From Coriobacteriia bacterium (GTDB lineage: Bacteria > Actinomycetota > Coriobacteriia > Anaerosomatales > PALSA-660): a stretch of DNA of 35,307 bases. Position 1 is the stretch's first letter; each line of letters starts with the position of its first letter. The stretch lies in NCBI GenBank assembly GCA_025361335.1, contig JANYAK010000023.1, forward strand, positions 1 to 35,307, written 5' to 3'. Both the position numbers and the translations under genes were made by a program. Under the pieces are notes generated by a model. It saw nothing but the letters and a program-made list of their open reading frames with translations. It searched no databases and was not told where the DNA came from. This document shows positions 16,378-35,307 of this stretch, in pieces.

Positions 16378-17217
16378 TCAGCCTCGTTCGCGCTCCAGCA
16401 GCTCCCGCTTGCGTTCCACGCCCCACCGGTAGCCGGTGAGGCTGCCGTCAGCGCCGATGACGCGATGGCAGGGGATGGCCAGCGCGATCGGGTTCGCGCC
16501 GCACGCGGCCGCGACGGCCCGCGCCGCGGTCGGGCGGCCGATGCGACGCGCCAGCTGGGAATAGGTGATCGTCTCGCCGCCCGGCACGTCGCGCAGGGCC
16601 GACCACACGAGTTGCTGAAAGGCGGTGCCCCGCACGTCCAGCGGCAGGCCGGTCACGCCACCGGGATGCTCCGCCAGCGAGACCACCGTCTCGATCCATG
16701 CGCGCCGCGTCGCGTCCGCGGGCCGAAGATCGGCACGGGGGAATCGCCGTTCGACCTGTGCGAGCAGGTCGGCGTCGCTCGAGCCGAAGGCGATCATACT
16801 GACGCCGCGCTCGGTCATCGCGACGACGAGCCGTCCCAGCGTCGTGTCCGCGAGCGCGTAGTTCATCACCTCACCGGGCGCCCCTCGCCGATACGCGGCG
16901 GGTGTCATGCCGAGCAGCTGGCTGGTCCGCTCGTAGACGCGACTGGTCGAGCCGAAGCCCGCGCCGTGGATGGCGTCGGCGATCGGCATACCCGCCGCGA
17001 GCGTGTCTCGCAGGCGAGTCGAGCGTCGAGCGCCGGCGTACTCTCGCGGAGTGAGGCCGGTCGTAGCGACGAACGCGCGGCGCAGGGTCGACTCGCTCAC
17101 ATGGACGGAGCGAGCGAGGTCAGCGACAGGCGGCGCACGCAGTCCGGAATCGACGGCATCATCGATCGCCCGGGCCACGGCCGCGATGTCCAGGTCGCGC
17201 TGCGTGTCGGTGTCCAT
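16378..17217 (-). CDS. Ada-like protein: AraC HTH plus methylguanine-DNA methyltransferase, without the zinc sensor domain
   Basis: The 279-residue protein has an AraC-type helix-turn-helix region (about residues 25-112, with VSESTLRRAF and GFGSTSRVYERTSQLLGMTPAAYR). A C-terminal O6-alkylguanine-DNA alkyltransferase domain follows (about 118-275). The active-site Cys250 is in the intact PCHRV motif. It directly removes alkyl groups from guanine. The N-terminal Ada domain that carries the zinc-bound methyl-accepting cysteine in E. coli Ada is absent, so phosphotriester sensing is unlikely. There is no ribosome site before the ATG, but TACACT lies six bases upstream, suggesting a leaderless transcript. 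Confidence 0.9.
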   Translation of the reverse strand: MDTDTQRDLDIAAVARAIDDAVDSGLRAPPVADLARSVHVSESTLRRAFVATTGLTPREYAGARRSTRLRDTLAAGMPIADAIHGAGFGSTSRVYERTSQLLGMTPAAYRRGAPGEVMNYALADTTLGRLVVAMTERGVSMIAFGSSDADLLAQVERRFPRADLRPADATRRAWIETVVSLAEHPGGVTGLPLDVRGTAFQQLVWSALRDVPGGETITYSQLARRIGRPTAARAVAAACGANPIALAIPCHRVIGADGSLTGYRWGVERKRELLERERG

Positions 17218-17488: not shown

Positions 17489-18637
17489 ATGGGCGCAGTG
17501 ATCCTACATGACGACGCGATGATCGACCCGCGTTCACCCGTGGACTCCATCGACGTCTCGGTCATACTGCCGGCGTACAACGAGGTCGACAGCGTCGACG
17601 GGGTCTACGAGCAGGTCACGTCAGTCCTCGCCACGCGCGACTACGAGTACGAGATCATCTTCGTGGACGACGGCTCGACCGACGGGACGTGGGACAAGAT
17701 CGTCGGTCTGGCGAGGCGCGACTCACGGGTCAGAGCCCTGAGGCACCGGCGCAACTTCGGTAAGGCGAGCGCGTTGGCGAACGGGTTCACCTACGCGCGC
17801 GGCGAGATCGTCGTCACGTCCGATGCGGACATGCAATACGACCCGAACGACATCCTGCGGCTCGTCGACAAGATCCTCGAGGGCTTCGATGTGGTGTCGG
17901 CGTACAAGGTGGTACGACGCGACCCCTTGAGCAAGCGCCTCCCATCGAAGTTCTTCAACTTCTTCGTCCGCACCACCACCGGCGTGGATCTGCACGACAT
18001 GAACGCGGGCCTGAAGGCGTTTCGGCACGACGCGGCTCAGGAGCTCATCCGATACGGGTACGGCGAGCTGCATCGCTTCTTCGTCGTGCTGGTAGCGCGG
18101 CGCGGCTTCACGGTCGCCGAAGTGCCGGTCGAGAGCCTGTACCGCACGTCCGGGCGATCCAAGTACGGCGTGGAGCGCTACATGCGGGGCGCTCTCGACT
18201 ACCTGACGGTGTTCTTCCTCTCGGGATACGCGGAGCGTCCCCTGCACCTGCTGGGCGCCATCGGGGTGTGGCTCTCGCTCGCGGGGACCGCCCTCTTCGT
18301 GTGGCTGTTCGCCATGTCGGTGACAGGATCAGGCATCATGCACGACAGCCCGTTCTTCGGTGTGTCGGAACTGCTCGTGATCACCGGGGTCCAGATGATC
18401 ATCTCCGGGCTGATCGCGGAGATGATCAACAACCTGGAGCGTCCCACGATGGGGCGCGCCAAGATCGCGCAGACCGTCCGGATCGAGCGACGCCACTCGC
18501 CCCTGGGGTCGGACCGCGTCGAGGTCGAACGGCGTGAGCGCGATAGTGACGCGCGGTCGCTGGGGGTCGAGACCGGAGCGGGCGCGGCGATCCGCGTTCA
18601 CCCGCACCCTCAGGCCCCGGGATCCGACGGAGCGTAG
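17489..18637 (+). CDS. GT2 glycosyltransferase, polyprenyl-phosphate sugar transferase type
   Basis: This 382-residue protein has a GT-A catalytic domain (about residues 22-235) with SVILPAYNE (24-32), FVDDGS (58-63) and the metal-binding DAD at 112-114. Two membrane helices follow, at about 252-278 and 290-312, then a charged tail. This layout matches DPM1/ArnC/GtrB-like enzymes, which transfer a sugar from a nucleotide donor to a polyprenyl phosphate at the inner membrane face. The resulting lipid-sugar could feed the GT39-like enzyme at 23583. The start is ATG with GAGAGG five bases upstream. It is the first gene of a three-gene plus-strand operon. Confidence 0.9.
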   Translation: MGAVILHDDAMIDPRSPVDSIDVSVILPAYNEVDSVDGVYEQVTSVLATRDYEYEIIFVDDGSTDGTWDKIVGLARRDSRVRALRHRRNFGKASALANGFTYARGEIVVTSDADMQYDPNDILRLVDKILEGFDVVSAYKVVRRDPLSKRLPSKFFNFFVRTTTGVDLHDMNAGLKAFRHDAAQELIRYGYGELHRFFVVLVARRGFTVAEVPVESLYRTSGRSKYGVERYMRGALDYLTVFFLSGYAERPLHLLGAIGVWLSLAGTALFVWLFAMSVTGSGIMHDSPFFGVSELLVITGVQMIISGLIAEMINNLERPTMGRAKIAQTVRIERRHSPLGSDRVEVERRERDSDARSLGVETGAGAAIRVHPHPQAPGSDGA

Positions 18638-18661: not shown

Positions 18662-20092
18662 TTGGCGAAGAACGTGGCGCGAGGCTCCCTGCTCGGGATG
18701 ATCGGACAGGGTTGGCAGATGGCTGCCGCCTTCGCACTCTACGCCCTGCTGGCGCGCCACCTGGGGCCGGTCCTGTTCGGGCGTTGGAGGATCGTGCTGT
18801 CCCTGCTCGCCTGGTTCGAGGTGTTCATCACTTCGGCCATGGTGAAGGCGGCGACCAAGGCGATCGGGGAGCGCCCGCGGGATGCGGCCGATCTCTCACG
18901 CGCCGCGTATGTCGGGCAGGCGATCGTGGCGGCCGTCGTCTTCCTGGGTGTCCAGCTGGCCGCGCTCCCGATCGCCCGGCTGCTGTCCAACGCCGCCCTC
19001 GCTCCGCTCATCAGGATCGCCGCTTTGGACATCCCTTCGTTCGCGATGCTCATGATCGCGTCGTCGATCGTGCTCGGCGCCCAGCGATACGAGCGTCAGG
19101 CCGTCGCGTGGATCATCTACGCGAGCGCGAAGGTAGGCCTCATCGCGCTGTTCGTGCTGGCCGGGTTCTCCCTGCCTGGAGCGCTCGTGGGCAACGCGCT
19201 CTCATCGATCGTCGGCTTCGCGGTGATGCAGTCCCGCATGGGTCGCGGCAGCATGCGGCCGGCCCAGCTGGCCCAGCTGGCGCGCGGCCTTCTCTTGGCG
19301 TCGGGGCCCTTCCTCGCGCTCAGCCTGGTCGAGGGCGTCGGCCAGAACGTCGACCTGTGGCTGGTGTCGGGCCTGGTGCCCAGCACCGTCTCGGTCGGGC
19401 TGTATGCGTCTGCGGTGGTGCTGGCTGAGGTCCCCGTGTTCCTGTTCCTCGGACTCGACAGGGTGATCTTCGCGTCGGTGACCAGGGCCCGGGCGGAAGG
19501 CGACTGCGAGGGGGCTGACAGGAACACGACCGCGGCCATCCGCACCGCGGTCATGGTCACGGTCCTGGCGATAGCCGTCGCCGCGTCGGTCGGGAGGCAG
19601 GTCATCGAGCTGGTCTACTCCTCCGCATACGCGGGGGCCGCACTGCCGCTCGTCCTCCTCATGGTCGCCGCCATGGGCCGCACCGTGCAGGCGGCGTGCG
19701 GCGAGGTGCTCATGGCCCAAGGCCGTGGCCGGTCCGCGCTGGGGATACTGGCGGCCACGGTCCTGCTCGAGGTGGGCGCGATCGCCATCCTCACCGTGCG
19801 CTTCGGGCTGGTCGGCGCGGCCGCGGGGACCGGTGTGGGCGCCATCGTCGCCGCGTTGTGGTCGGGCTTCGCGCTGCGCTCCTCCACCGGATGGCGCCCG
19901 GTCGCCACCTTGGGGCGCTCGGTGTGCGCCGCGGCGGTCGTCGGAGGAGGTCTGGCGCTGCTGGCACCGGGCCCGCTGCTTCTGCTGTTCGCCGTGCCGA
20001 TGGCGGCGGTAGCCTATGTCGTGTTCCTCCGCGTCATCGGGGAGTTCAGCGCCCAGGACATCTCCGCGATGCGTGCGTCCGTCGGAAGGTAG
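18662..20092 (+). CDS. Polysaccharide flippase, Wzx/MurJ-like (MOP superfamily)
   Basis: The 476-residue membrane protein has roughly twelve to fourteen helices and little hydrophilic sequence between them, starting MAKNVARGSLLGMIGQGWQM. A central LVEGVGQNVDLWLVSGLVP segment resembles MOP-superfamily polysaccharide exporters. Such proteins flip lipid-linked sugar units or move polysaccharide to the outer face. The start codon appears to be TTG at 18662, with GGAGG five bases upstream; the next in-frame ATG, about 12 codons on, lacks a ribosome site. The gene lies 24 bases after the GT2 gene and three bases before the deacetylase gene, so all three are probably co-transcribed. Confidence 0.88.
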   Translation: MAKNVARGSLLGMIGQGWQMAAAFALYALLARHLGPVLFGRWRIVLSLLAWFEVFITSAMVKAATKAIGERPRDAADLSRAAYVGQAIVAAVVFLGVQLAALPIARLLSNAALAPLIRIAALDIPSFAMLMIASSIVLGAQRYERQAVAWIIYASAKVGLIALFVLAGFSLPGALVGNALSSIVGFAVMQSRMGRGSMRPAQLAQLARGLLLASGPFLALSLVEGVGQNVDLWLVSGLVPSTVSVGLYASAVVLAEVPVFLFLGLDRVIFASVTRARAEGDCEGADRNTTAAIRTAVMVTVLAIAVAASVGRQVIELVYSSAYAGAALPLVLLMVAAMGRTVQAACGEVLMAQGRGRSALGILAATVLLEVGAIAILTVRFGLVGAAAGTGVGAIVAALWSGFALRSSTGWRPVATLGRSVCAAAVVGGGLALLAPGPLLLLFAVPMAAVAYVVFLRVIGEFSAQDISAMRASVGR

Positions 20093-20095
20093 ACC

Positions 20096-20941
20096 ATGCC
20101 GGAGCGCACACAGATGATCATCAACGCCGACGACCTCGCTTGGTCGCGCAGCGTGGATCGGGGGATCATCGAGGCGCATCGCGCCGGGATGGTCACCAGT
20201 GCGAGCCTGCTCGCCACCGGCGCCTCGTTCGATCATGCGGTGTCACTCGCCCAGGCCACGCCGTCGCTCAGCGTGGGCATGCACCTGAGCTTCTACCGCG
20301 GAACGACCATCCTTGCGCCGGAACGCGTGTCCGGGATCACCGGCCCCGACGGTCTTCTGCTGGGATCGTGGACCAGCATCGTCTCGCGGCTTGTCGCGGG
20401 CACGTTCGACCTCGGCCAGCTGGAGGGCGAGCTGCGAGCGCAGGTCGATCGCGCGAGGGAGGCGGGCATCCAGCCGACGCACCTCGACGGAGAGAAGCAC
20501 CTGCACCTGTGGCCGTCGGTGTTCGACATCGTGTGCAGGCTCGCCGTGGAATACGACATCCGCGAGGTCCGGGTCGTGCGCGAAAGGCCGTCTGTGCGGC
20601 CCATCCCGGCCGGATTGACGTGGCTGTCGGCCCGCGCCGCGCGCGTCGCCAAGGGATGCGGGCTGGTCGTGTCGGATGCCACGATCGGCTTGACGGAGGC
20701 AGCGACCGATCTCGCCGCCTTGGCCCGGCTTCTCCGGCGCGCCCGCGCGCCGCACGTCGAGTTCATCGTCCATCCGGGGCGTGTGGACGAGGAGTTCATG
20801 CGCATCCAGAGCGTCCTTCCCAATCGGCTCGTCCACGACCGAGAGGAGGAGCTCGCCGTCCTCACCAGCGCGGAGGCGCGCTGCCTCATCGAGAGCGCGG
20901 GATACGAGCTGGTCGGAAGGGGCGGCTGGGAGCGTCAGTAG
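20096..20941 (+). CDS. YdjC/ChbG-type carbohydrate deacetylase
   Basis: The 281-residue protein belongs to the YdjC family of metal-dependent deacetylases that act on N-acetylated sugars (ChbG on chito-oligosaccharides, HpnK in hopanoid synthesis). The metal-site motifs are visible: NADDLA at 10-15, GMHLS with His63 at 61-65, and THLDGEKHLHLW with His129 at 128-139. The usual NADDFG/NADDLG has Ala in the last place here, a mild change. No signal peptide is seen, so it should act in the cytoplasm, perhaps on lipid-linked precursors before export. Its stop overlaps the convergent synthase-hydrolase gene by seven bases. Confidence 0.85.
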   Translation: MPERTQMIINADDLAWSRSVDRGIIEAHRAGMVTSASLLATGASFDHAVSLAQATPSLSVGMHLSFYRGTTILAPERVSGITGPDGLLLGSWTSIVSRLVAGTFDLGQLEGELRAQVDRAREAGIQPTHLDGEKHLHLWPSVFDIVCRLAVEYDIREVRVVRERPSVRPIPAGLTWLSARAARVAKGCGLVVSDATIGLTEAATDLAALARLLRRARAPHVEFIVHPGRVDEEFMRIQSVLPNRLVHDREEELAVLTSAEARCLIESAGYELVGRGGWERQ

Positions 20942-23586
20942 ATCGGTTGGAACGACGCGAGCAGCTTCCACTGATGCGCGTCGAGCGAGCCCACCCATCG
21001 CGTCAGCTCGGCCGGCGTGGTCCCCACGAAATGGTCGGGCGCGATCGCTGCGCGGAACGCCGCGAGGCTTCTCGGCGACGTGTCGATGCGCCAGTCCTGG
21101 GTGGTCGGGCCGGTCTCCACCGAATCGAAGTAGATGACGGCGTTGACGGAGGGGTCGGCCGCGATCCGTGTGTATGCGTCGGTGATCCAGGCCGCCTTGT
21201 CGCCTCCCTGCTCGACGGATGCGAACTCCGCGATGCAGATGGGCTTGTGGAGCGTCCTCAAGAACGCCAGAGGCTTGGCGTACCAGTGGTCGTACATGCC
21301 CCAGGATGAATACCTGCTGGAGGCGCCCCAGTTGAAGCCGCTGACCGCGACCCAGTCGACGTACGCGTCGCCCGGATAGTAGGCCGCGTATGCGTTGGTC
21401 GCTCGACTGGGGACGCTCTCGTGGTTGATGCTCCAGACCCAGGTGACGTTGGTCGCACCCTCGCTCACGAAGATGTCATGGAGGTGGCGCCACGCCGCGA
21501 CGTACAGCTCCGGTGTGTTCCCGTTCGTGACGCCCGACCATGGGTACCAGTTGCCGTTCATCTCGTGCATCGGCCTCAGCATCACGGGGCCGCCGAGCGC
21601 GCGGATGTCCCGTGCCCAGGAGCGGATGTAGTCGTCGTGCGCTCCCGCGACGATCGTGGCAAGCCCGAACACGGGCTGCTTGCCGGGGTTGCGCACGACG
21701 TTCGAGTTGCCTCCCGGGTCCCAGGGCTCCCACGTGATCATCGGGATCTTCCCGCGGCGCATGACGGCGATCACGGCGGCCGCGTCGAACAGCGAGCGGT
21801 TGGAGCTGGCCCACGGCTGGTACCACATCACGATCGACGCCGGCTTGCCGGCCTTCGCCTCGAACGCGTCGAGCACGGCGGGGTCGAACGGCGCCGGTGG
21901 CACGTAGACGCCGAGGTAGGCGCTGGTGGGCAGGGACGCGACCTTGCTCGCCATCGGCAGTGCCGCGGCAGCAGTCGAGGTCGCGGCTGTTGCGCCCCCG
22001 ACGGCCCCGGCGCCCACAGGCCCCGCCGCCTGCCGCAGGAGCGCGCAGCCCGACGTGCCGGCCAGCACGAGCGCGCACGCGAGCAGCAGAAGAAGCGTAC
22101 TTGCCACGTGTTCCGTGGCATGAAGCGGCTTGTGCGGATGCCATGTGAGTCTCACGAAGCCCAGCAGGACCACGATGTGTGCCGTCGCCCATGCCACGTT
22201 GTTCATGACGGAAGGCACCGCACCGAACGTCGCAAGCCCGTACACGGAGGCGCCGGTGAGAGCCGCGATGGCAAGCATGTGCACGACGACCGGGCGCAGT
22301 GTGGCCCTACCCGCCCTCTTCGGCGTGACGACGAAGCGCGCTGCGCGCCCGAACAGCGTGGAGAAGAGTGCCCGGATCTGCACGGGGAACGCAGCGAGCG
22401 TGAACCAGAGGGAGGCGAAGCTCAGCTGGAAGTCGGATGCGTAGATGATGGTCGCGAGCGCGAAGAGCACGTAGGGCAGGAAGTGGACGGGATAGTCGTT
22501 GGGCACCGACACCGGTCGAAGGCCGCCGATGAGGTAGGCCGTGGGGAGCACGAGGTACGCCAGGTATGCGCATCCCGTGAACCAATACATGAAGCCGAGC
22601 GCGTACTGCGCGGCCTGCGGGACGCTCATCGTGCGGGTGAAGGGACGCCGCTTGAAGAGGATCTCCAGCCCTCCGCGCCCCCATCTGAGCTGCTGGCCGA
22701 AGTAGGACCGTACGTCCAGCGGGCCGAGCCCGTCGGCAAGCACCTTCGCGACGTAGACCGAGGAGAAACCGCGTCGCAGAAGCAGGAGCGACCCGCGCAG
22801 GTCCTCCGTGATCGAGTCTTGGGGCAGCCCCCCGATGGCGTCGACGGCCGAGCGCCTGTATACCACGTTGGTACCGCACGAGAAGACGGCCCGGCAACCG
22901 TCCTTGCCCCGCATGATCGGCCCGTAGAACAGGCCCTGCTGCGCGTGGGCGCCTTCGGCCACGCGGTTCTCGACCCGATTGCGGTAGACCTGGGGCGTCT
23001 GGACGAAGGCGACGTTCAGATCGTCGAACGCCCCCATGGTGGCCTCCAAGAAGTCGGCATGCGGCACCTGATCCGCGTCGAAGATGGCGAAGAAGCGGCC
23101 TCCGGTCATGGCCAGCGCGTGGTTGATGTTGCCCGCCTTCGCGCCGGTCAGGTCCTCCCGCGTGACGTAGCCGGCACCGAGGCGGTCTGCCAGTTGGCGG
23201 ATCTCGGGGCTGTGCCCGTCGTCGAGGACGAACACCCTTGCGCGCGGGTGGCGCATCGCGACGGCGGCCGCGACGGTGCGCTCGACGATGTCGGCCGGTT
23301 CGCCGAGAACAGTGACGAACACGTCCACCGTCTCGTTCGTTTGCGAGAAGTCGGGTGTGCGGGGTTCGCTCCACCGCTGCATCGAGATCGTGTACCAGAA
23401 TCCCGCCGCCTGCGCGACGTTGAACAGTTCCGCGAAGACGAGCAGGAGATAGAGCGCGTGGTTCTCAGGACGGGCGTCGAACAGGAGCCACTTCAGGTAC
23501 AGAGCGGCCAGGACGGTGGAGGCCAGCGACAGGATCCGGCAATTCCGCAGGTAGGCGGCTCGCCGCTGTGGGGGGATCTCGATCAT
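20935..23586 (-). CDS. Cellulose-synthase-like GT2 fused to a GH26 glycoside hydrolase
   Basis: The 883-residue protein carries a processive GT2 synthase followed by a GH26 domain. Two N-terminal helices (about 17-36 and 44-67) precede the GT domain, with DDG (122-124), DAD (170-172), TED (260-262) and QQLRW (298-302), the cellulose/hyaluronan-synthase motif set. Further helices run from about 325 to 480, and one at 496-513 ends in a lipobox-like TSGC (Cys514). The GH26 domain (about 555-850) keeps the acid/base Glu675 in RPMHEMN and nucleophile Glu787 in CIAEF. No PilZ domain is present. Topology puts the hydrolase outside, where it could trim the polymer, perhaps a beta-mannan or beta-glucan. 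The start is ATG at 23586, overlapping the upstream stop (ATGA). Confidence 0.88.
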   Translation of the reverse strand: MIEIPPQRRAAYLRNCRILSLASTVLAALYLKWLLFDARPENHALYLLLVFAELFNVAQAAGFWYTISMQRWSEPRTPDFSQTNETVDVFVTVLGEPADIVERTVAAAVAMRHPRARVFVLDDGHSPEIRQLADRLGAGYVTREDLTGAKAGNINHALAMTGGRFFAIFDADQVPHADFLEATMGAFDDLNVAFVQTPQVYRNRVENRVAEGAHAQQGLFYGPIMRGKDGCRAVFSCGTNVVYRRSAVDAIGGLPQDSITEDLRGSLLLLRRGFSSVYVAKVLADGLGPLDVRSYFGQQLRWGRGGLEILFKRRPFTRTMSVPQAAQYALGFMYWFTGCAYLAYLVLPTAYLIGGLRPVSVPNDYPVHFLPYVLFALATIIYASDFQLSFASLWFTLAAFPVQIRALFSTLFGRAARFVVTPKRAGRATLRPVVVHMLAIAALTGASVYGLATFGAVPSVMNNVAWATAHIVVLLGFVRLTWHPHKPLHATEHVASTLLLLLACALVLAGTSGCALLRQAAGPVGAGAVGGATAATSTAAAALPMASKVASLPTSAYLGVYVPPAPFDPAVLDAFEAKAGKPASIVMWYQPWASSNRSLFDAAAVIAVMRRGKIPMITWEPWDPGGNSNVVRNPGKQPVFGLATIVAGAHDDYIRSWARDIRALGGPVMLRPMHEMNGNWYPWSGVTNGNTPELYVAAWRHLHDIFVSEGATNVTWVWSINHESVPSRATNAYAAYYPGDAYVDWVAVSGFNWGASSRYSSWGMYDHWYAKPLAFLRTLHKPICIAEFASVEQGGDKAAWITDAYTRIAADPSVNAVIYFDSVETGPTTQDWRIDTSPRSLAAFRAAIAPDHFVGTTPAELTRWVGSLDAHQWKLLASFQPIY
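22105..22107 (-). other. Possible internal GTG start for a separate GH26 lipoprotein form
   Basis: This in-frame GTG (Val494 of the fusion protein) would give a 390-residue product starting MASTLLLLLACALVLAGTSG, then Cys. That reads like a lipoprotein signal, though it lacks N-terminal positive charges. Only a weak GGAA precedes it, so the intact fusion is the simpler reading. Confidence 0.25.
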
Positions 23587-25208
23587 GGCCTCACCACCGG
23601 ATTCAGGAAGAACCCGCGCTGTGTGCCGACCTCGTAGAGCGTCACCCGGATCCGTCGGAACTTGCGATCCTGCTTCAGGACGTAGCTCTCGGCAGTCAGC
23701 CATCTCGTGACGAGTGTCCGGTCGAGCGCGATGCGGGGCGTCTCCTGCCACGTGGCGACGACCCAGACGCGGCGGGATATGCCCACTTGGCGGACGAGGT
23801 CCTGCGCCAGTTGCGCGGGACTGTTGCGCGGCCGCCCCTTCGCGCCGTACAGGGGCACCGCCCGGACAGCGGCATATGCATCGGGCGGCAGGTAGTACTC
23901 GGGGATGGAGGTGACGAAGTTGGGCAGCAGCAGGATGGTGTCGCCTTGCTGGTAGCGGGCGGCCACGAGCGCCATCGCCTCTCGGTTTTCCCACTTGACG
24001 ACGCTCGACGGGTCGAACGACTGATCCGTCCAGGCTGCCGCCGCGACCACGACCAGCACCGCCGCCGTGGCCCAACGCGCGGACGTCCGCATCTCGGCGA
24101 CGGCGCGGGCGGCAAGGATGACCACGCAGACACCGACGGCCGTGTAGTAGCGGGCCTCCAGCACGATCGGCTGCCACGAGCCGAGAAGTGTGATGGCGAG
24201 GGCGCCGCCGACACCGCCGGCGATGAGGTATCGCGTCCGCGGCGACACGTGCCGGGCGAACCCCGCGCTCACGAACACGAGCGTGATGAGCAGCGGCCAC
24301 ATCGCGACAAGGTCGCGCGTGATCGCCTCGGAATGGAAGCCGAACAGCGACTCCACGGGCACGAGGATGAGCTGGTTGAAGTGCGCACCGATGACGGGGG
24401 GTTCCCCGCCGTAGTTGAACGCCCCCGTGGCCCCACGAAGGAGCTCGCGATGCGCGATCACCTTCGGGAGCCACCATGCGAGGGGCACCATCGCCACCAG
24501 CAGAGCGCCAACCCAGGCGGCGACTTCTGGAAGCCGCCGCACGGCGCCTAGAGGGGGCGTCGAGCGTGGGCGCGGCTCCCCGGCGGGGTCCTCCGCGTGC
24601 ATGCGTCCGCGCGCGTGGGCGAACAGGACGTAGACGCCTTGTCCGAGGACGAGGAACGCGAAGAAGTACTGAGTCATGAGCCCCGCGCTCGTCGCGAGCG
24701 CGTACAGCACCCACCAACCGAAGCCGCGGCGCCGCAGGCCTTTCCACAACGCACCGGTGCTGAGCAGGGCGAAGACCAGCACCATCGTGTACATGCGCGC
24801 TTCCTGCGCGTACCAGATGAGAAACGGCGAGATCGCGACCATCGCGGCGGCTATGGCACCGACGCGACGGTCGTAGATGTCCCTGGCCACCCAGTACATC
24901 AGCGGGATGGCCACGATGCCCCACACGATGGGGAAGCCCCTTACGGCGACCTCGGACCTGCCGAAGTACACGATCCAGTAATGCAGCAGGGTGTGGAACA
25001 GGGGAGGATGCACGTTGCCGGCCATCTTCTCGAGCATCTGGGCGATGCCCCAGGAGGCTTGGCGCACTGAGGTCGTCTCGTCGAGCCAGAAGCCGCGAGT
25101 GTCGATCGTGGCGATGCGCAGCGCGGCCCCGACGAGGGTGAGGCTCGCGACGATCAAGAAGGCCGCGGCGCGCGAGAGCCCCTCGCCGGTCCTCGGATCG
25201 GGACGCAT
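23583..25208 (-). CDS. GT39-like membrane glycosyltransferase
   Basis: This 541-residue multi-span protein resembles the PMT_2/ArnT-like glycosyltransferases (GT39/GT83), which use polyprenyl-phosphate sugars outside the membrane. After the first helix the loop carries FWLDETTS with Asp43-Glu44, the typical catalytic acidic pair, and then NVHPPLFH (65-72), another family hallmark. About ten or more helices follow, then a soluble C-terminal domain from about residue 425. The ATG at 25206-25208 has a strong GAGGAGGT upstream. Its stop overlaps the start of the synthase-hydrolase gene by four bases, so the two are coupled. The GT2 at 17489 is a plausible donor-lipid maker. Confidence 0.87.
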   Translation of the reverse strand: MRPDPRTGEGLSRAAAFLIVASLTLVGAALRIATIDTRGFWLDETTSVRQASWGIAQMLEKMAGNVHPPLFHTLLHYWIVYFGRSEVAVRGFPIVWGIVAIPLMYWVARDIYDRRVGAIAAAMVAISPFLIWYAQEARMYTMVLVFALLSTGALWKGLRRRGFGWWVLYALATSAGLMTQYFFAFLVLGQGVYVLFAHARGRMHAEDPAGEPRPRSTPPLGAVRRLPEVAAWVGALLVAMVPLAWWLPKVIAHRELLRGATGAFNYGGEPPVIGAHFNQLILVPVESLFGFHSEAITRDLVAMWPLLITLVFVSAGFARHVSPRTRYLIAGGVGGALAITLLGSWQPIVLEARYYTAVGVCVVILAARAVAEMRTSARWATAAVLVVVAAAAWTDQSFDPSSVVKWENREAMALVAARYQQGDTILLLPNFVTSIPEYYLPPDAYAAVRAVPLYGAKGRPRNSPAQLAQDLVRQVGISRRVWVVATWQETPRIALDRTLVTRWLTAESYVLKQDRKFRRIRVTLYEVGTQRGFFLNPVVRP

Positions 25209-25441: not shown

Positions 25442-26458
25442 TTGAAGAGAGTGGTGGCATTGCTCGCAAGCGTGGCCCTCATGTTCGGCACCGTGTTGAC
25501 CCCCGTCCAAGCGGTCTCGGCCCGGTCCTCGTCGACCGCCCGCCATCGCTCTCCGGCTCCGACCCCCGCCCCGCCCCCCATCCCGACCCCCGCCCCGTCG
25601 GCCGGCCGCTGGATCGGCTTCTACCAGTCCGAGGCGGGAACCACCTTCAGCGCTGCGCTGCTGACTTCGCGCGAATCCCTGGTCGCCAAGCATCCCGCTG
25701 TGGTCAACTTCTACCTCTCGGATTCCTCGAGCTTCCCGCTGTCGCGCGTCCAGATCATCCGCGACCACGGTTCGACGCCGATGGTCACTCTGGAGTTCTG
25801 GTCCACGCAGAAGGGCGGCGTCGCGTCGATCACCAACGGCGCCAAGGATTCTTACCTCGCCGGTTTCGCCGATGCCGCGAAGGCGTATGGCGGCGAGGTG
25901 TGGCTGAGGCCCTTCCACGAGATGAACAGCAACTGGTACCCGTGGGCGGGAGCGAGCGCAGGCAACACGCCGGCGCAGGTCGTGGCAGCCTGGAACCACG
26001 TGCGACAGATCTTCGCGTCGCGCGGCGCCACCAACGTCAAGTTCGTCTGGTGCGTCAACAACGACAGCGTCCCGAACACCACGGGCAACGCCATCGGGGC
26101 GTACTGGCCCGGCGATGGCAACGTCGACCTGCTCGCCATCGACGGCTACAACTTCGGGACGTCGCAGTCGTGGTCGGCCTGGCGCGGCTTCCGCAACGTC
26201 ATCGGCGCCTCGTACGCGACGGTCACCGCGCTCAGCGCGAAGCCGCTCTTCCTCGCGGAGACCGGTTGCGTCGAGCAGGGCGGCAGCAAGGCCGCCTGGA
26301 TCACCGACATGTTCGCTTCGCTGGGCACCACGTTCCCGCGCATCACGGGTATCGTCTGGTTCAACGTGAACGACACGACCGCGAACACCGATTGGCGCAT
26401 CGACTCGTCCGCAACCAGCCTGACCGCGTTCAACACCGCCGTCGGGAGTCCGTTCTAG
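25442..26458 (+). CDS. Secreted GH26-family glycoside hydrolase
   Basis: The 338-residue protein has a Sec signal peptide (about residues 1-24, MKRVVALLAS then a hydrophobic core, likely cut after PVQA) and a Pro-rich linker (about 38-53). A GH26 domain follows, at about 55-335. The acid/base Glu160 is in RPFHEMN and the nucleophile Glu273 in FLAETG. GH26 enzymes cut beta-mannan, beta-1,3-xylan or mixed-linkage beta-glucan. The domain is clearly related to the GH26 part of the neighbouring synthase fusion (both have NWYPW and GNTP after the acid/base). The TTG start at 25442 is chosen because the signal peptide begins there; the ribosome site is only fair. It diverges from the GT39-like gene. 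Confidence 0.88.
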   Translation: MKRVVALLASVALMFGTVLTPVQAVSARSSSTARHRSPAPTPAPPPIPTPAPSAGRWIGFYQSEAGTTFSAALLTSRESLVAKHPAVVNFYLSDSSSFPLSRVQIIRDHGSTPMVTLEFWSTQKGGVASITNGAKDSYLAGFADAAKAYGGEVWLRPFHEMNSNWYPWAGASAGNTPAQVVAAWNHVRQIFASRGATNVKFVWCVNNDSVPNTTGNAIGAYWPGDGNVDLLAIDGYNFGTSQSWSAWRGFRNVIGASYATVTALSAKPLFLAETGCVEQGGSKAAWITDMFASLGTTFPRITGIVWFNVNDTTANTDWRIDSSATSLTAFNTAVGSPF

Positions 26459-31884: not shown

Positions 31885-31974
31885 TCGGGTCCTCGGCTGG
31901 CGACGGTGCTGGATTCAAGCAGTCTGCGCGGAACGTGCCAGCCTGTCCAACAGCGTCGGAGTGTCTGGCGGTAC

Positions 31975-31983
31975 TGCTATCCT
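31975..31983 (+). promoter_or_regulatory. Extended -10 promoter candidate (TGCTATCCT)
   Basis: TGCTATCCT fits the TGnTAnnnT extended -10 pattern, 35 bases before the GTG start at 32019. A ribosome site GAGGGGGA follows at 32008-32015. It lies in the 134-base divergent gap between the ABC ATPase and the restriction-modification gene. Confidence 0.4.
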
Positions 31984-32018
31984 TGAGCCGCCAGCCATGG
32001 TCAGCCCGAGGGGGACTC

Positions 32019-35000
32019 GTGAGCGCACCGGTCGAGGCGTATTTCGCACAACTGCGTGGCATCCGTGCGTCCGGGGCCGGGGTGGCTGAGACCACCTACT
32101 ACCCGGCGGTGAAGTCGCTGCTCGACGACGTCGGCAAGCACCTCAAGCCGAAGGTCACCGCACTCATGCAGCTGCGCAACGCCGGCGCGGGCATCCCGGA
32201 CGGTGGGCTCTTCACTGCGGGGCAGCTTAAGGGCTGGGAGCCGGGCGTCGATCCGCTGGCGGGACAGATGCCACAGCGCGGCGCCATCGAGGTCAAGGGC
32301 ACCGCTGACGATGCGTTTGCGGTCGCGAAGTCCGAGCAGGTCGCTCGCTACGTCGAGCGCTACGGGCTCGTGCTCGTGACCAACCTGCGCGACTTCGTGC
32401 TCGTGGGCCGCAGCGCCGACGGGTCGGGCGTTCGCGAACTCGAGTCGTGCCGCTTGGCCGAGACCGAGGCGGGCTTCTGGGCGAAAGTCGCCCAACCGCG
32501 CAAGTATGCGGAGGCCGCCGGCGAGGGCCTGCTGGAGTTCCTGCGCCGAGCGCTTCTGCACGACGCACCACTCACCGACCCGAAGGACGTCGCTTGGTTC
32601 CTCGCGAGCTACGCGCGCACCGCGCGCCTGCGCTTGGAGCAGAAGCACGAGTTGCCCGCGCTCGATCAGCTGCGCAGCCAGCTCGAGGAGTCGCTCGGCC
32701 TGAAGTTCGAGGGTGAGAAGGGCGACCACTTCTTCCGATCCACGCTGGTGCAGACACTCTTCTATGGCATGTTCGCGAGCTGGGTTCTGTGGGCGCGCGA
32801 CCGCGATCACACGCGCGAGATCCCGTGGGACCAACGCTTCCAGTGGGAGACGGCCACCGCCACCCTGCACGTACCGATGGTCTACGAGCTCTTCCGCCAG
32901 TTCGCCGACGTGCGCCAGCTCGGTGCGCTCGGCATCTCCGAGGTGCTCGAGTGGGCCGAGGAGGTCATCTGGCGGATCGACCGCAAGGCGTTCTTCGAGA
33001 AGTTCCGCGAGGACCACGCAGTGCAGTACTTCTACGAGCCGTTCCTTGAGGCGTTCGACCCGCAGCTGCGTAAGGAGCTCGGTGTCTGGTACACGCCGGA
33101 CGAGGTCGTCAAGTACATGGTCGCGCGCGTGGACACCGTGCTGCGCGAGGAACTCGGCATCGCCGACGGTCTGGCCGACCCGTCCGTGGTTGTACTCGAC
33201 CCGTGCTGCGGCACCGGTGCCTATCTCGTGGAGGTGCTGCGCAAGATCGACGAGACGCTCACCGCGAAGGGCGCTGACGCGCTGACCCGCAACGACGTGA
33301 AGCAAGCCGCGATGCATCGCGTCATCGGCTTCGAGATCATGCCGGCGCCGTTCGTGGTGGCGCACCTGCAGATGGGCATCCTGCTCGCCGAACTCGGCGT
33401 ACCGCTGAAGGACGCGGACGAGCGCGCCGCGGTGTATCTGACGAACGCGCTCACGGGTTGGGGCGACGGCGGAGTGACGCCGCCGAAGGATAAGCGCGTC
33501 GGGGAGGGGCAGTTGCACTCGACGGTGCTGTTCCCCGAGTTCGCCGAGGAGCGGGACGCGGCGGATCGGATCAAGAGGGACGAGCAGATTCTCGTTGTGA
33601 TCGGCAACCCGCCGTACAACGGGTTCGCTGGGCTGGCGGTCGACGAGGAGCGGGACCTGACCGAGGTCTATCGGACAGCGAAGCGGACTGCGGCCCCGCA
33701 GGGGCGCGGCTTCAATGACTTGTACGCCAGATTCCTGCGAATCGCGGAGCGTCAAATCGCCGAGCGCTCGGGGCGAGGCGTCGCATGCCTCATCACGAAC
33801 TACTCGTGGCTCGACGGGCTGTCGTTCACGGGGATGAGAGAGCGCTTCTTGGACGGGTTCGACCGCATCTGGATCGACAACCTAAACGGCGACAAGTATA
33901 GGTCAGGGAAGACCACGCCCTGCGGTGACCCAGACCCGAGTGTCTTCTCAACCGCTCGCAACCGCGAAGGAATCCAAGTGGGCACAGCAATCGGGCTCAT
34001 GGTCCGTTCGGCAGGTCTATCTACGAAGAGCATTGACTATCGGGATCTGTGGGGAGCGAGCAAGCTAGGAGTCCTGGATTCGGATGCGGCGAATCCGCGC
34101 GCAATGGAATACCAGACGGTTGACCCGGACCCCGCTGTCGGCTTCCCCTTCTCTCCGGTGAGTGTCGCCCCCGGCTATCTGCGATGGCCACGAATCACAG
34201 AGGTGTTCGCCTGGCGCTCGCCGGGGGTCACCACGAGTCGGGACCAGGCTTTGGTCGACATCGACTTGGAGCGCTTGCACGCGCGGATGAGCGTCTACTT
34301 CGATTCGGATCAGTCCATGCAGCACGTCTCTTCGGTGGCACCGTCACTCGCGGTCTCCACAGGTCGGTTCGACCACGTCGCCGTGAGGCGCACTCTCCTT
34401 GCGATGGGGCGCGAGAGCGGCATGTTCGAGAAGTACGCGTATCGGCCGTTTGATGACCGGTGGGTGTACTGGCATCCGCACACGAAACTGCTCGACGAGA
34501 AGCGCGAAGGACTGGCCGCCGCCGTGGCCGCAGGCAGTCTCGTGTTCACGTGCCGTCAGAAGGCCGAGCGCCAGACCGAAGGGAGCCCCTTCTACATCAC
34601 GAATGCGCTGCCCGACTGGCACCTGACTCGTCCGGGGAGCGTCTGCTTCCCAATCAGGCCGACCATTCCGGGAGCGCTCTTCGATACGCCCATCGGCTTG
34701 ACTGACCGAGCGACGGTTTGGGCCGAGGAGACCGGCAACGACGTCCTGTCGAGTCAAGACAGCCTGTGGTTCCACACTGTCGCGGTCGGGCACTCACCCA
34801 CTTACCTCGCGGAGAATGCAGATGCTGTCCGGCAGGACTGGCCGCGCATACCGCTGCCCGTTGCCATTGCTGCCCTCGAATACTCGGCCCGCTTGGGACG
34901 ATGGGTGTCCGACCTGCTGAGCGGCTCCAGCACGGTCACGGGCGATTCGGGCGAATCACGCGTCTCAACGGCACCCCGAATTGGCGTGTTGACTCGCATT

Positions 35001-35307
35001 GGCGCGCGTACTCTCGATCCCGCGACAGATCTCGCGGTTACTGCCCGTTGGGGCATCGCCGGCAAGGGCGGCATCACAATGCCCTCCACCGGCAAGCTGA
35101 ACGAGCGCGCCTACACCGACGACGAGCACGCCGCCATCGCCGAGGGCGCCGAGCCGCTTGGCCTGACCGCCGACCAGGCGATCGCCCTCCTCGGCGAGAC
35201 CTGCTTCGACATCTACCTCAACGACGTCGCGTACTGGCGCTGCGTGCCGGCCAACGTGTGGCGCTACACGATAGGCGGCTACCAGGTCATCAAGAAGTGG
35301 CTGAGCT
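32019..35307 (+). CDS. Type ISP/IIG-like restriction-modification enzyme (partial, runs off the right edge)
   Basis: At least 1096 residues are visible and the frame is open at the edge. The N-terminal part has a PD-(D/E)xK-type nuclease motif: Asp61 in IPDGG, Glu91-Val-Lys93, then Gln107 and Tyr111 in a QxxxY arrangement. After a helical region, an N6-adenine methylase follows, with motif I DPCCGTGAYL (about 395-404) and motif IV NPPY (about 529-532). The C-terminal half is the specificity region, with YRPFDDRWVYW near residue 808, as in the type ISP C-terminal family. No helicase motor is seen, unlike LlaGI-type enzymes. From family length, probably only a few dozen residues are missing. 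Codons at about 33850-35040 are visibly less GC-rich. Confidence 0.88.
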   Translation, partial: MSAPVEAYFAQLRGIRASGAGVAETTYYPAVKSLLDDVGKHLKPKVTALMQLRNAGAGIPDGGLFTAGQLKGWEPGVDPLAGQMPQRGAIEVKGTADDAFAVAKSEQVARYVERYGLVLVTNLRDFVLVGRSADGSGVRELESCRLAETEAGFWAKVAQPRKYAEAAGEGLLEFLRRALLHDAPLTDPKDVAWFLASYARTARLRLEQKHELPALDQLRSQLEESLGLKFEGEKGDHFFRSTLVQTLFYGMFASWVLWARDRDHTREIPWDQRFQWETATATLHVPMVYELFRQFADVRQLGALGISEVLEWAEEVIWRIDRKAFFEKFREDHAVQYFYEPFLEAFDPQLRKELGVWYTPDEVVKYMVARVDTVLREELGIADGLADPSVVVLDPCCGTGAYLVEVLRKIDETLTAKGADALTRNDVKQAAMHRVIGFEIMPAPFVVAHLQMGILLAELGVPLKDADERAAVYLTNALTGWGDGGVTPPKDKRVGEGQLHSTVLFPEFAEERDAADRIKRDEQILVVIGNPPYNGFAGLAVDEERDLTEVYRTAKRTAAPQGRGFNDLYARFLRIAERQIAERSGRGVACLITNYSWLDGLSFTGMRERFLDGFDRIWIDNLNGDKYRSGKTTPCGDPDPSVFSTARNREGIQVGTAIGLMVRSAGLSTKSIDYRDLWGASKLGVLDSDAANPRAMEYQTVDPDPAVGFPFSPVSVAPGYLRWPRITEVFAWRSPGVTTSRDQALVDIDLERLHARMSVYFDSDQSMQHVSSVAPSLAVSTGRFDHVAVRRTLLAMGRESGMFEKYAYRPFDDRWVYWHPHTKLLDEKREGLAAAVAAGSLVFTCRQKAERQTEGSPFYITNALPDWHLTRPGSVCFPIRPTIPGALFDTPIGLTDRATVWAEETGNDVLSSQDSLWFHTVAVGHSPTYLAENADAVRQDWPRIPLPVAIAALEYSARLGRWVSDLLSGSSTVTGDSGESRVSTAPRIGVLTRIGARTLDPATDLAVTARWGIAGKGGITMPSTGKLNERAYTDDEHAAIAEGAEPLGLTADQAIALLGETCFDIYLNDVAYWRCVPANVWRYTIGGYQVIKKWLS

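Follow-up and report, generated by a model that had tools for sequence, protein, structure and literature searches.

The role of the hydrolases that belong to polysaccharide synthase systems (Bcs, Alg and Ccs) is poorly understood. The locus described here raises the question whether a synthase and a hydrolase can be parts of the same protein and, if so, what such a protein would make and cut. The window (the whole stretch of 35,307 nucleotides that was analysed) contains one frame in which a GT2 synthase is followed by a GH26 domain (Table 1).

Domains of the fused frame

When the stop-free frame of 883 aa was searched using Pfam, both a GT2 domain (Glyco_tranf_2_3, residues 87-305, E-value 2e-23) and a GH26 domain (Glyco_hydro_26, residues 652-772, E-value 2e-14) were found, in agreement with the preliminary description. 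The GH26 match scored 54.3 bits against a gathering score of 20.2 and, together with both catalytic residues (E675 and E787), places the C-terminal part in this family. The previously listed synthase motifs (DDG, DAD, TED and QxxRW) and the two glutamates are all intact. The GT2-GH26 fusion in this uncultured actinobacterium is real and is one membrane protein.

Table 1 Features of the GT2-GH26 locus (positions refer to the window unless a locus is named)
Feature	Position	Strand	Remarks
Polyprenyl-phosphate sugar transferase-like GT2 (ArnC/PgfS-like)	17489..18637	+	near-locus homologues in L024, L025, L026
MOP/Wzx-type polysaccharide flippase	18662..20092	+	L024, L025 and L027 have homologues near the locus
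YdjC-like protein (carbohydrate deacetylase family)	20096..20941	+	3' end overlaps that of the fusion by 7 bp (tail-to-tail); same place in L024
Fused GT2-GH26 CDS	20935..23586	-	ATG start, 883 aa, single stop-free frame
GH26 domain, lichenase type, residues ~556-849	21040..21921	-	
Nucleophile Glu787 (IAEF)	21226..21228	-	alignment to CtLic26A
Acid/base Glu675 (RPMHEMNG)	21562..21564	-	alignment to CtLic26A
Seventh membrane helix, residues 492-517	22036..22113	-	hydropathy, low-confidence AlphaFold2 helix, comparison with separate genes
BcsA-like GT2 synthase part, residues 1-485	22132..23586	-	six predicted membrane segments
FxVTxK gating loop as FVVTPK, residues 418-423	22318..22335	-	motif defined in PMC10374906
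QxxRW motif as QQLRW, residues 298-302	22681..22695	-	
TED motif, residues 260-262	22801..22809	-	
DAD (DxD) motif, residues 170-172	23071..23079	-	
DDG motif, residues 122-124 (D122/D123)	23215..23223	-	
GT-C membrane glycosyltransferase (PMT_2), N-terminal WLDET	23583..25208	-	4-bp overlap (ATGA) with the fusion start
Second GH26 gene, transcribed away from the GT-C/GT2-GH26 operon	25442..26458	+	syntenic divergent homologues in L024, L025, L026
Further GT2-GH26 fusions	L191:5154-8498, L192:5803-8586, L193:6282-9224		other actinobacterial class

The GT2 part carries the D,D,D,Q(Q/R)xRW signature of processive BcsA/CesA-like beta-glycan synthases and resembles BcsA over its whole length including the channel helices, both in a PDB sequence search (7lby, E-value 9e-48; 4hg6, E-value 3e-45) and when the predicted structure was searched with Foldseek (E-value 7e-31). 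It is not a BcsA proper. TIGR03030 was matched with an E-value of 1e-72 at 245 bits, below the equivalog cut-off of 699, and neither a PilZ domain nor a BcsB partner was found in the organism's own genome (92 % complete), so that regulation and partners probably differ from those of Bcs systems. No GH17 domain was found by Pfam in the fusion, which sets it apart from NdvB-type cyclic glucan synthases with their N-terminal GH17. The synthases of the unfused relatives stop at about 490-515 aa and are also without PilZ. Since these proteins and the own genome have no PilZ, which moreover would be cytoplasmic while GH26 is predicted outside, we concluded that the earlier idea of a hydrolase in the PilZ position is not suitable.

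The GH26 part was compared with characterized members of the family. In the PDB sequence search, the Clostridium thermocellum lichenase CtLic26A was matched with an E-value of 1.8e-53, and the next best GH26 reached 6e-11. Judged by these E-values, the domain is nearer to CtLic26A than to mannanases. The structure search gave the same result: CtLic26A was found with an E-value of 5e-22 (TM-score 0.87-0.90 over the target), whereas mannanases reached 1e-10 or weaker. Lichenases form a branch separate from mannanases in the published GH26 tree (PMC6556568). A mannanase identity was rejected on the basis of the sequence search, the alignment to CtLic26A and the structure search. As the domain is near CtLic26A and far from mannanases, a beta-glucan product appears likelier than mannan; of the two products proposed previously, a mannan-like polymer and a mixed-linkage beta-glucan, we retain the latter type and disfavour the former. 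The product would most likely be a beta-(1,3;1,4)-glucan or a beta-1,4-glucan. GT2 sequences cannot separate cellulose from mixed-linkage glucan, and the model of a mixed-linkage glucan synthase fits cellulose too (PMC10374906). Assigning the linkage from GT2 residues was dropped, as such residues were uninformative in that study of RiGT2.

Seven hydrophobic segments were observed in the hydropathy profile of the fusion. If the N-terminus lies inside, as in BcsA-type enzymes, seven segments would put GH26 outside the membrane, where it had been predicted before. In the AlphaFold2 model, the two domains are linked by a low-confidence helix (residues 492-517), and the inter-domain confidence is low (pTM 0.57).

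Separate and fused genes in relatives

GT2 carriers, defined by an E-value of 1e-40 or lower, were found in 7 of the 69 genomes of the order. The members inspected, fused or unfused, are represented by one assembly per species, and several are MAGs. GT-C, GT2 and GH26 are consecutive on one contig in six of the seven; GT2 and GH26 are fused in the present genome (G000) and G003, and are adjacent separate genes in G008, G012, G030 and G036. In the seventh genome (G010), contig C235 ends after GT-C and GT2. The same tail of GT2 (LEQLESEAR and a stop) opens contig C90 and GH26 comes next, so that the order is likely the same though split over two contigs.

In the five relatives with separate genes, GH26 lies just downstream of GT2 and has its own N-terminal signal peptide. 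The lipobox is canonical in four of them (LAGC, LTGC, VAGC and LASC), and G012 has VPGC. By this comparison, the seventh helix of the fusion appears to be the former signal peptide of a once separate GH26 gene; the sequence GTSGC (C514) is left in the helix region, with T at -3, and is not a canonical lipobox. G036 has its GT2 stop codon in frame with the start of GH26, at a distance of 12 nt (L027:7905-7920). This genome was ruled out as fused because a TGA separates the two genes, and it is one stop-codon loss short of fusion.

A second fused member of the family (953 aa; L028, public record L099, uncultured Coriobacteriia bacterium) comes from an independent MAG. When the GT2 tree was drawn, G000 grouped with the unfused G008, G030 and G012, and G003 with the unfused G010; a single fused clade in the family was rejected (AU p 5e-7). 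Three further fusions, confirmed by Pfam, were found in another actinobacterial class, that of G707 (G891, 1114 aa; G896, 927 aa; G814, 980 aa). The fused state takes at least four changes on the wider tree, in which the G891 branch is long. Judging by these trees, the fusion has arisen several times, and a fusion that was then split may be part of the four-change count. In other parts of the phylum, GT2 and GH26 lie side by side without fusion in G546, G511 and G980, and are divergent in G472. The preliminary description had named homologues that are always two genes as the pattern that would speak against it; adjacent pairs are indeed found in most relatives, yet other fusions exist.

GH26 matches were observed in all seven GT2 genomes (2-7 in each) and in only two of the 62 other genomes (Fisher p ~3e-8, calculated by hand with kinship ignored). 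This strong genomic linkage supports the coupled synthesis and trimming suggested previously. Since the two genes are adjacent in relatives and were fused in several cases, the chain is probably made and trimmed in one coupled process. On contig C30 of the own genome, GH26 is joined to DUF5648 in a frame of 544 aa (L031:6694-8328).

The neighbourhood of the fusion is conserved. GT-C adjoins GT2 in the remaining six system-bearing genomes, and it lies beside GT2 in 49 of 80 public loci (L098-L177), including some public entries for these same genomes. The pair spans Actinomycetota, Acidobacteriota and Patescibacteria-type lineages, and the two are fused in L114:5125-9078. We know of no description of the GT-C/GT2 pair as a unit. 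G008 reproduces the whole order of the window (divergent GH26, GT-C and GT2-GH26, with YdjC, the flippase and the ArnC/PgfS-like GT2 following in convergent orientation), and G030, G012 and G036 reproduce parts of it; in G003, the segment that was compared yielded matches to GT-C and GH26 alone. The window also encodes an AraC-type HTH fused to an O6-methylguanine-DNA methyltransferase (Ada-like; 16378-17217, minus strand) and a Type ISP-like restriction-modification protein (Type_ISP_C, N6_Mtase; 31935-35306, plus strand) that runs off the contig end.

Proposed role of the GH26 domain

On the basis of these comparisons, we consider it fairly probable that the protein synthesises beta-glucan processively and carries its own tethered, exit-side GH26 of lichenase type, which acts on the emerging chain. 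The BcsA-like GT2 would polymerise a glucose chain from UDP-sugar on the cytoplasmic side, and the growing chain would be pushed through the synthase's own channel. The seventh membrane helix would tether the GH26 endo-glucanase at the outer face of the protein, where it would cut or, as a retaining enzyme, transfer the emerging chain, and chain length or release would be set at the exit. The GT-C encoded alongside may decorate the glucan. The fusion would fix a coupling that relatives get from a separate membrane-anchored GH26 encoded by the next gene. The fusion itself, its intact motifs, the lichenase-like character of GH26, the conserved gene neighbourhood and the recurrence of the fusion are evident from the sequences; the topology, the substrate and the cutting of the protein's own product we infer. 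A wider extension, which is possible but rather doubtful, is that Actinomycetota have a class of 'self-trimming' synthases, repeatedly fused from an ancestral GT2 and a tethered GH26, that would make a set-length mixed-linkage (or cyclic or branched) glucan with side sugars added by GT-C.

We also analyzed other explanations. The GH26 domain might mainly catalyse transglycosylation, by which the nascent chain would be cyclised, branched or passed on to another acceptor. GH26 is, like GH17, a retaining family of clan GH-A. Published GH17-GT2 BcsA-like proteins, discussed as cyclic glucan synthases, were proposed to cleave and cyclise their chain (PMC10237404). However, among characterised proteins the nearest relative is CtLic26A, a hydrolase, and we regard a mainly transferring GH26 as unlikely. 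It is quite unlikely that the domain serves to scavenge or turn over beta-glucan from the environment and is co-transcribed by chance, the fusion acting merely as an anchor: the further GH26 genes (25442-26458 in the window, C30, and up to seven matches in G036) do resemble a degradation set, but GH26 is nearly confined to genomes carrying the GT2 synthase, lies directly behind it and was fused to it repeatedly.

The junction itself allows two more readings. An internal GTG at residue 494, preceded by a weak GGA and followed by a signal-peptide-like stretch, or cleavage by signal peptidase near C514, where GTSGC persists from the ancestral lipobox region, could yield two proteins from the open frame, so that the fusion would be only formal. 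We consider this distinctly improbable, as the T at -3 of GTSGC is non-canonical, the fused G003 is without such a cysteine, an in-frame stop is absent and three more fusions are known.

GC3 is 0.78-0.97 across the fused frame including the junction. Residue 484 is the last invariant GT2 position, and beyond it the next stops of the other two frames lie at residue-equivalents 586 and 704 (~100 and ~220 codons). As these stops are distant, a single missed or extra base cannot give back a normal two-gene layout, which also speaks against a stop or frameshift hidden at residues ~480-555. Thus, although the genes are adjacent in unfused relatives and often in different frames, an assembly error in which a frameshift merged them is hardly credible, as neither other frame has a nearby stop, a second fusion of the family comes from an independent MAG (L028/L099) and three more are found elsewhere.

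Comparison with known systems

The proposed synthase with a tethered GH26 was compared with known systems. BcsA/BcsZ systems likewise combine a synthase with a glucanase active outside the cytoplasm, and BcsZ is a separate GH8 protein. CtLic26A is a secreted plant-glucan degrader unattached to a synthase. Its structures (PDB 2bv9 and 2vi0) share with the present domain the GH26 fold, the catalytic Glu pair and the HExNGxWYPW region, at 37-38 % identity in the structural alignment.

The claim that the hydrolase is always kept as a separate protein was too strong, as GH17-GT2 BcsA-like proteins have been published (PMC10237404) and GH5-GT2 fusions occur in the same class. In the latter (L061-L065 of G336, G397, G300, G249 and G342), a GH5 cellulase is N-terminal to the GT2 synthase in frames of 1072-1141 aa. 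The GH17-GT2 'Orphan'/NdvB proteins of pseudomonads (PMC10237404) are also single polypeptides with a BcsA-like GT2 in the membrane and cytoplasm and a hydrolase outside. However, their GH17 is N-terminal and linked to beta-1,3-glucan, whereas the GH26 described here is C-terminal, lichenase-like, from Actinomycetota and derived from a neighbouring gene. The clostridial Ccs cluster (CcsA and the GH5 protein CcsZ; PMC7710045) resembles the present locus in having a BcsA-like synthase and an adjoining cognate beta-glucanase without BcsC, but CcsZ is a separate protein. No CcsB-, CcsH- or CcsI-like genes were recognised in the window by Pfam.

The bacterial mixed-linkage glucan synthases RiGT2 (PMC10374906) and BgsA (PMC5567048) are both BcsA-like GT2 proteins with D,D,D,QxxRW. 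The FxVTxK gating loop is common to the fusion and RiGT2, and BgsA is, like the fusion, without PilZ; in contrast, RiGT2 requires a PilZ-like domain for activity. GH26 is unmentioned in the RiGT2 paper (PMC10374906). The wps-1 locus of A. missouriensis, which has a GH26, was rejected as a comparison because it is a Wzx/Wzy cluster with no synthase fusion.

No description of a GT2-GH26 fusion was found in the literature searched, which was mostly without subscription papers. The hydrolase-synthase principle is known from GH17-GT2 and CcsZ, and the pairing of GT2 with GH26, in what is probably a beta-glucan synthase to which a cognate lichenase is tethered, appears to be new. The lichenase-type GH26 serves as a cue to the product of the synthase and points to a beta-glucan, perhaps mixed-linkage, from an uncultured actinobacterial lineage. 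With unfused sisters available in the same order, this natural one-to-one fusion offers a direct handle on whether a hydrolase works on the nascent chain and determines its length.
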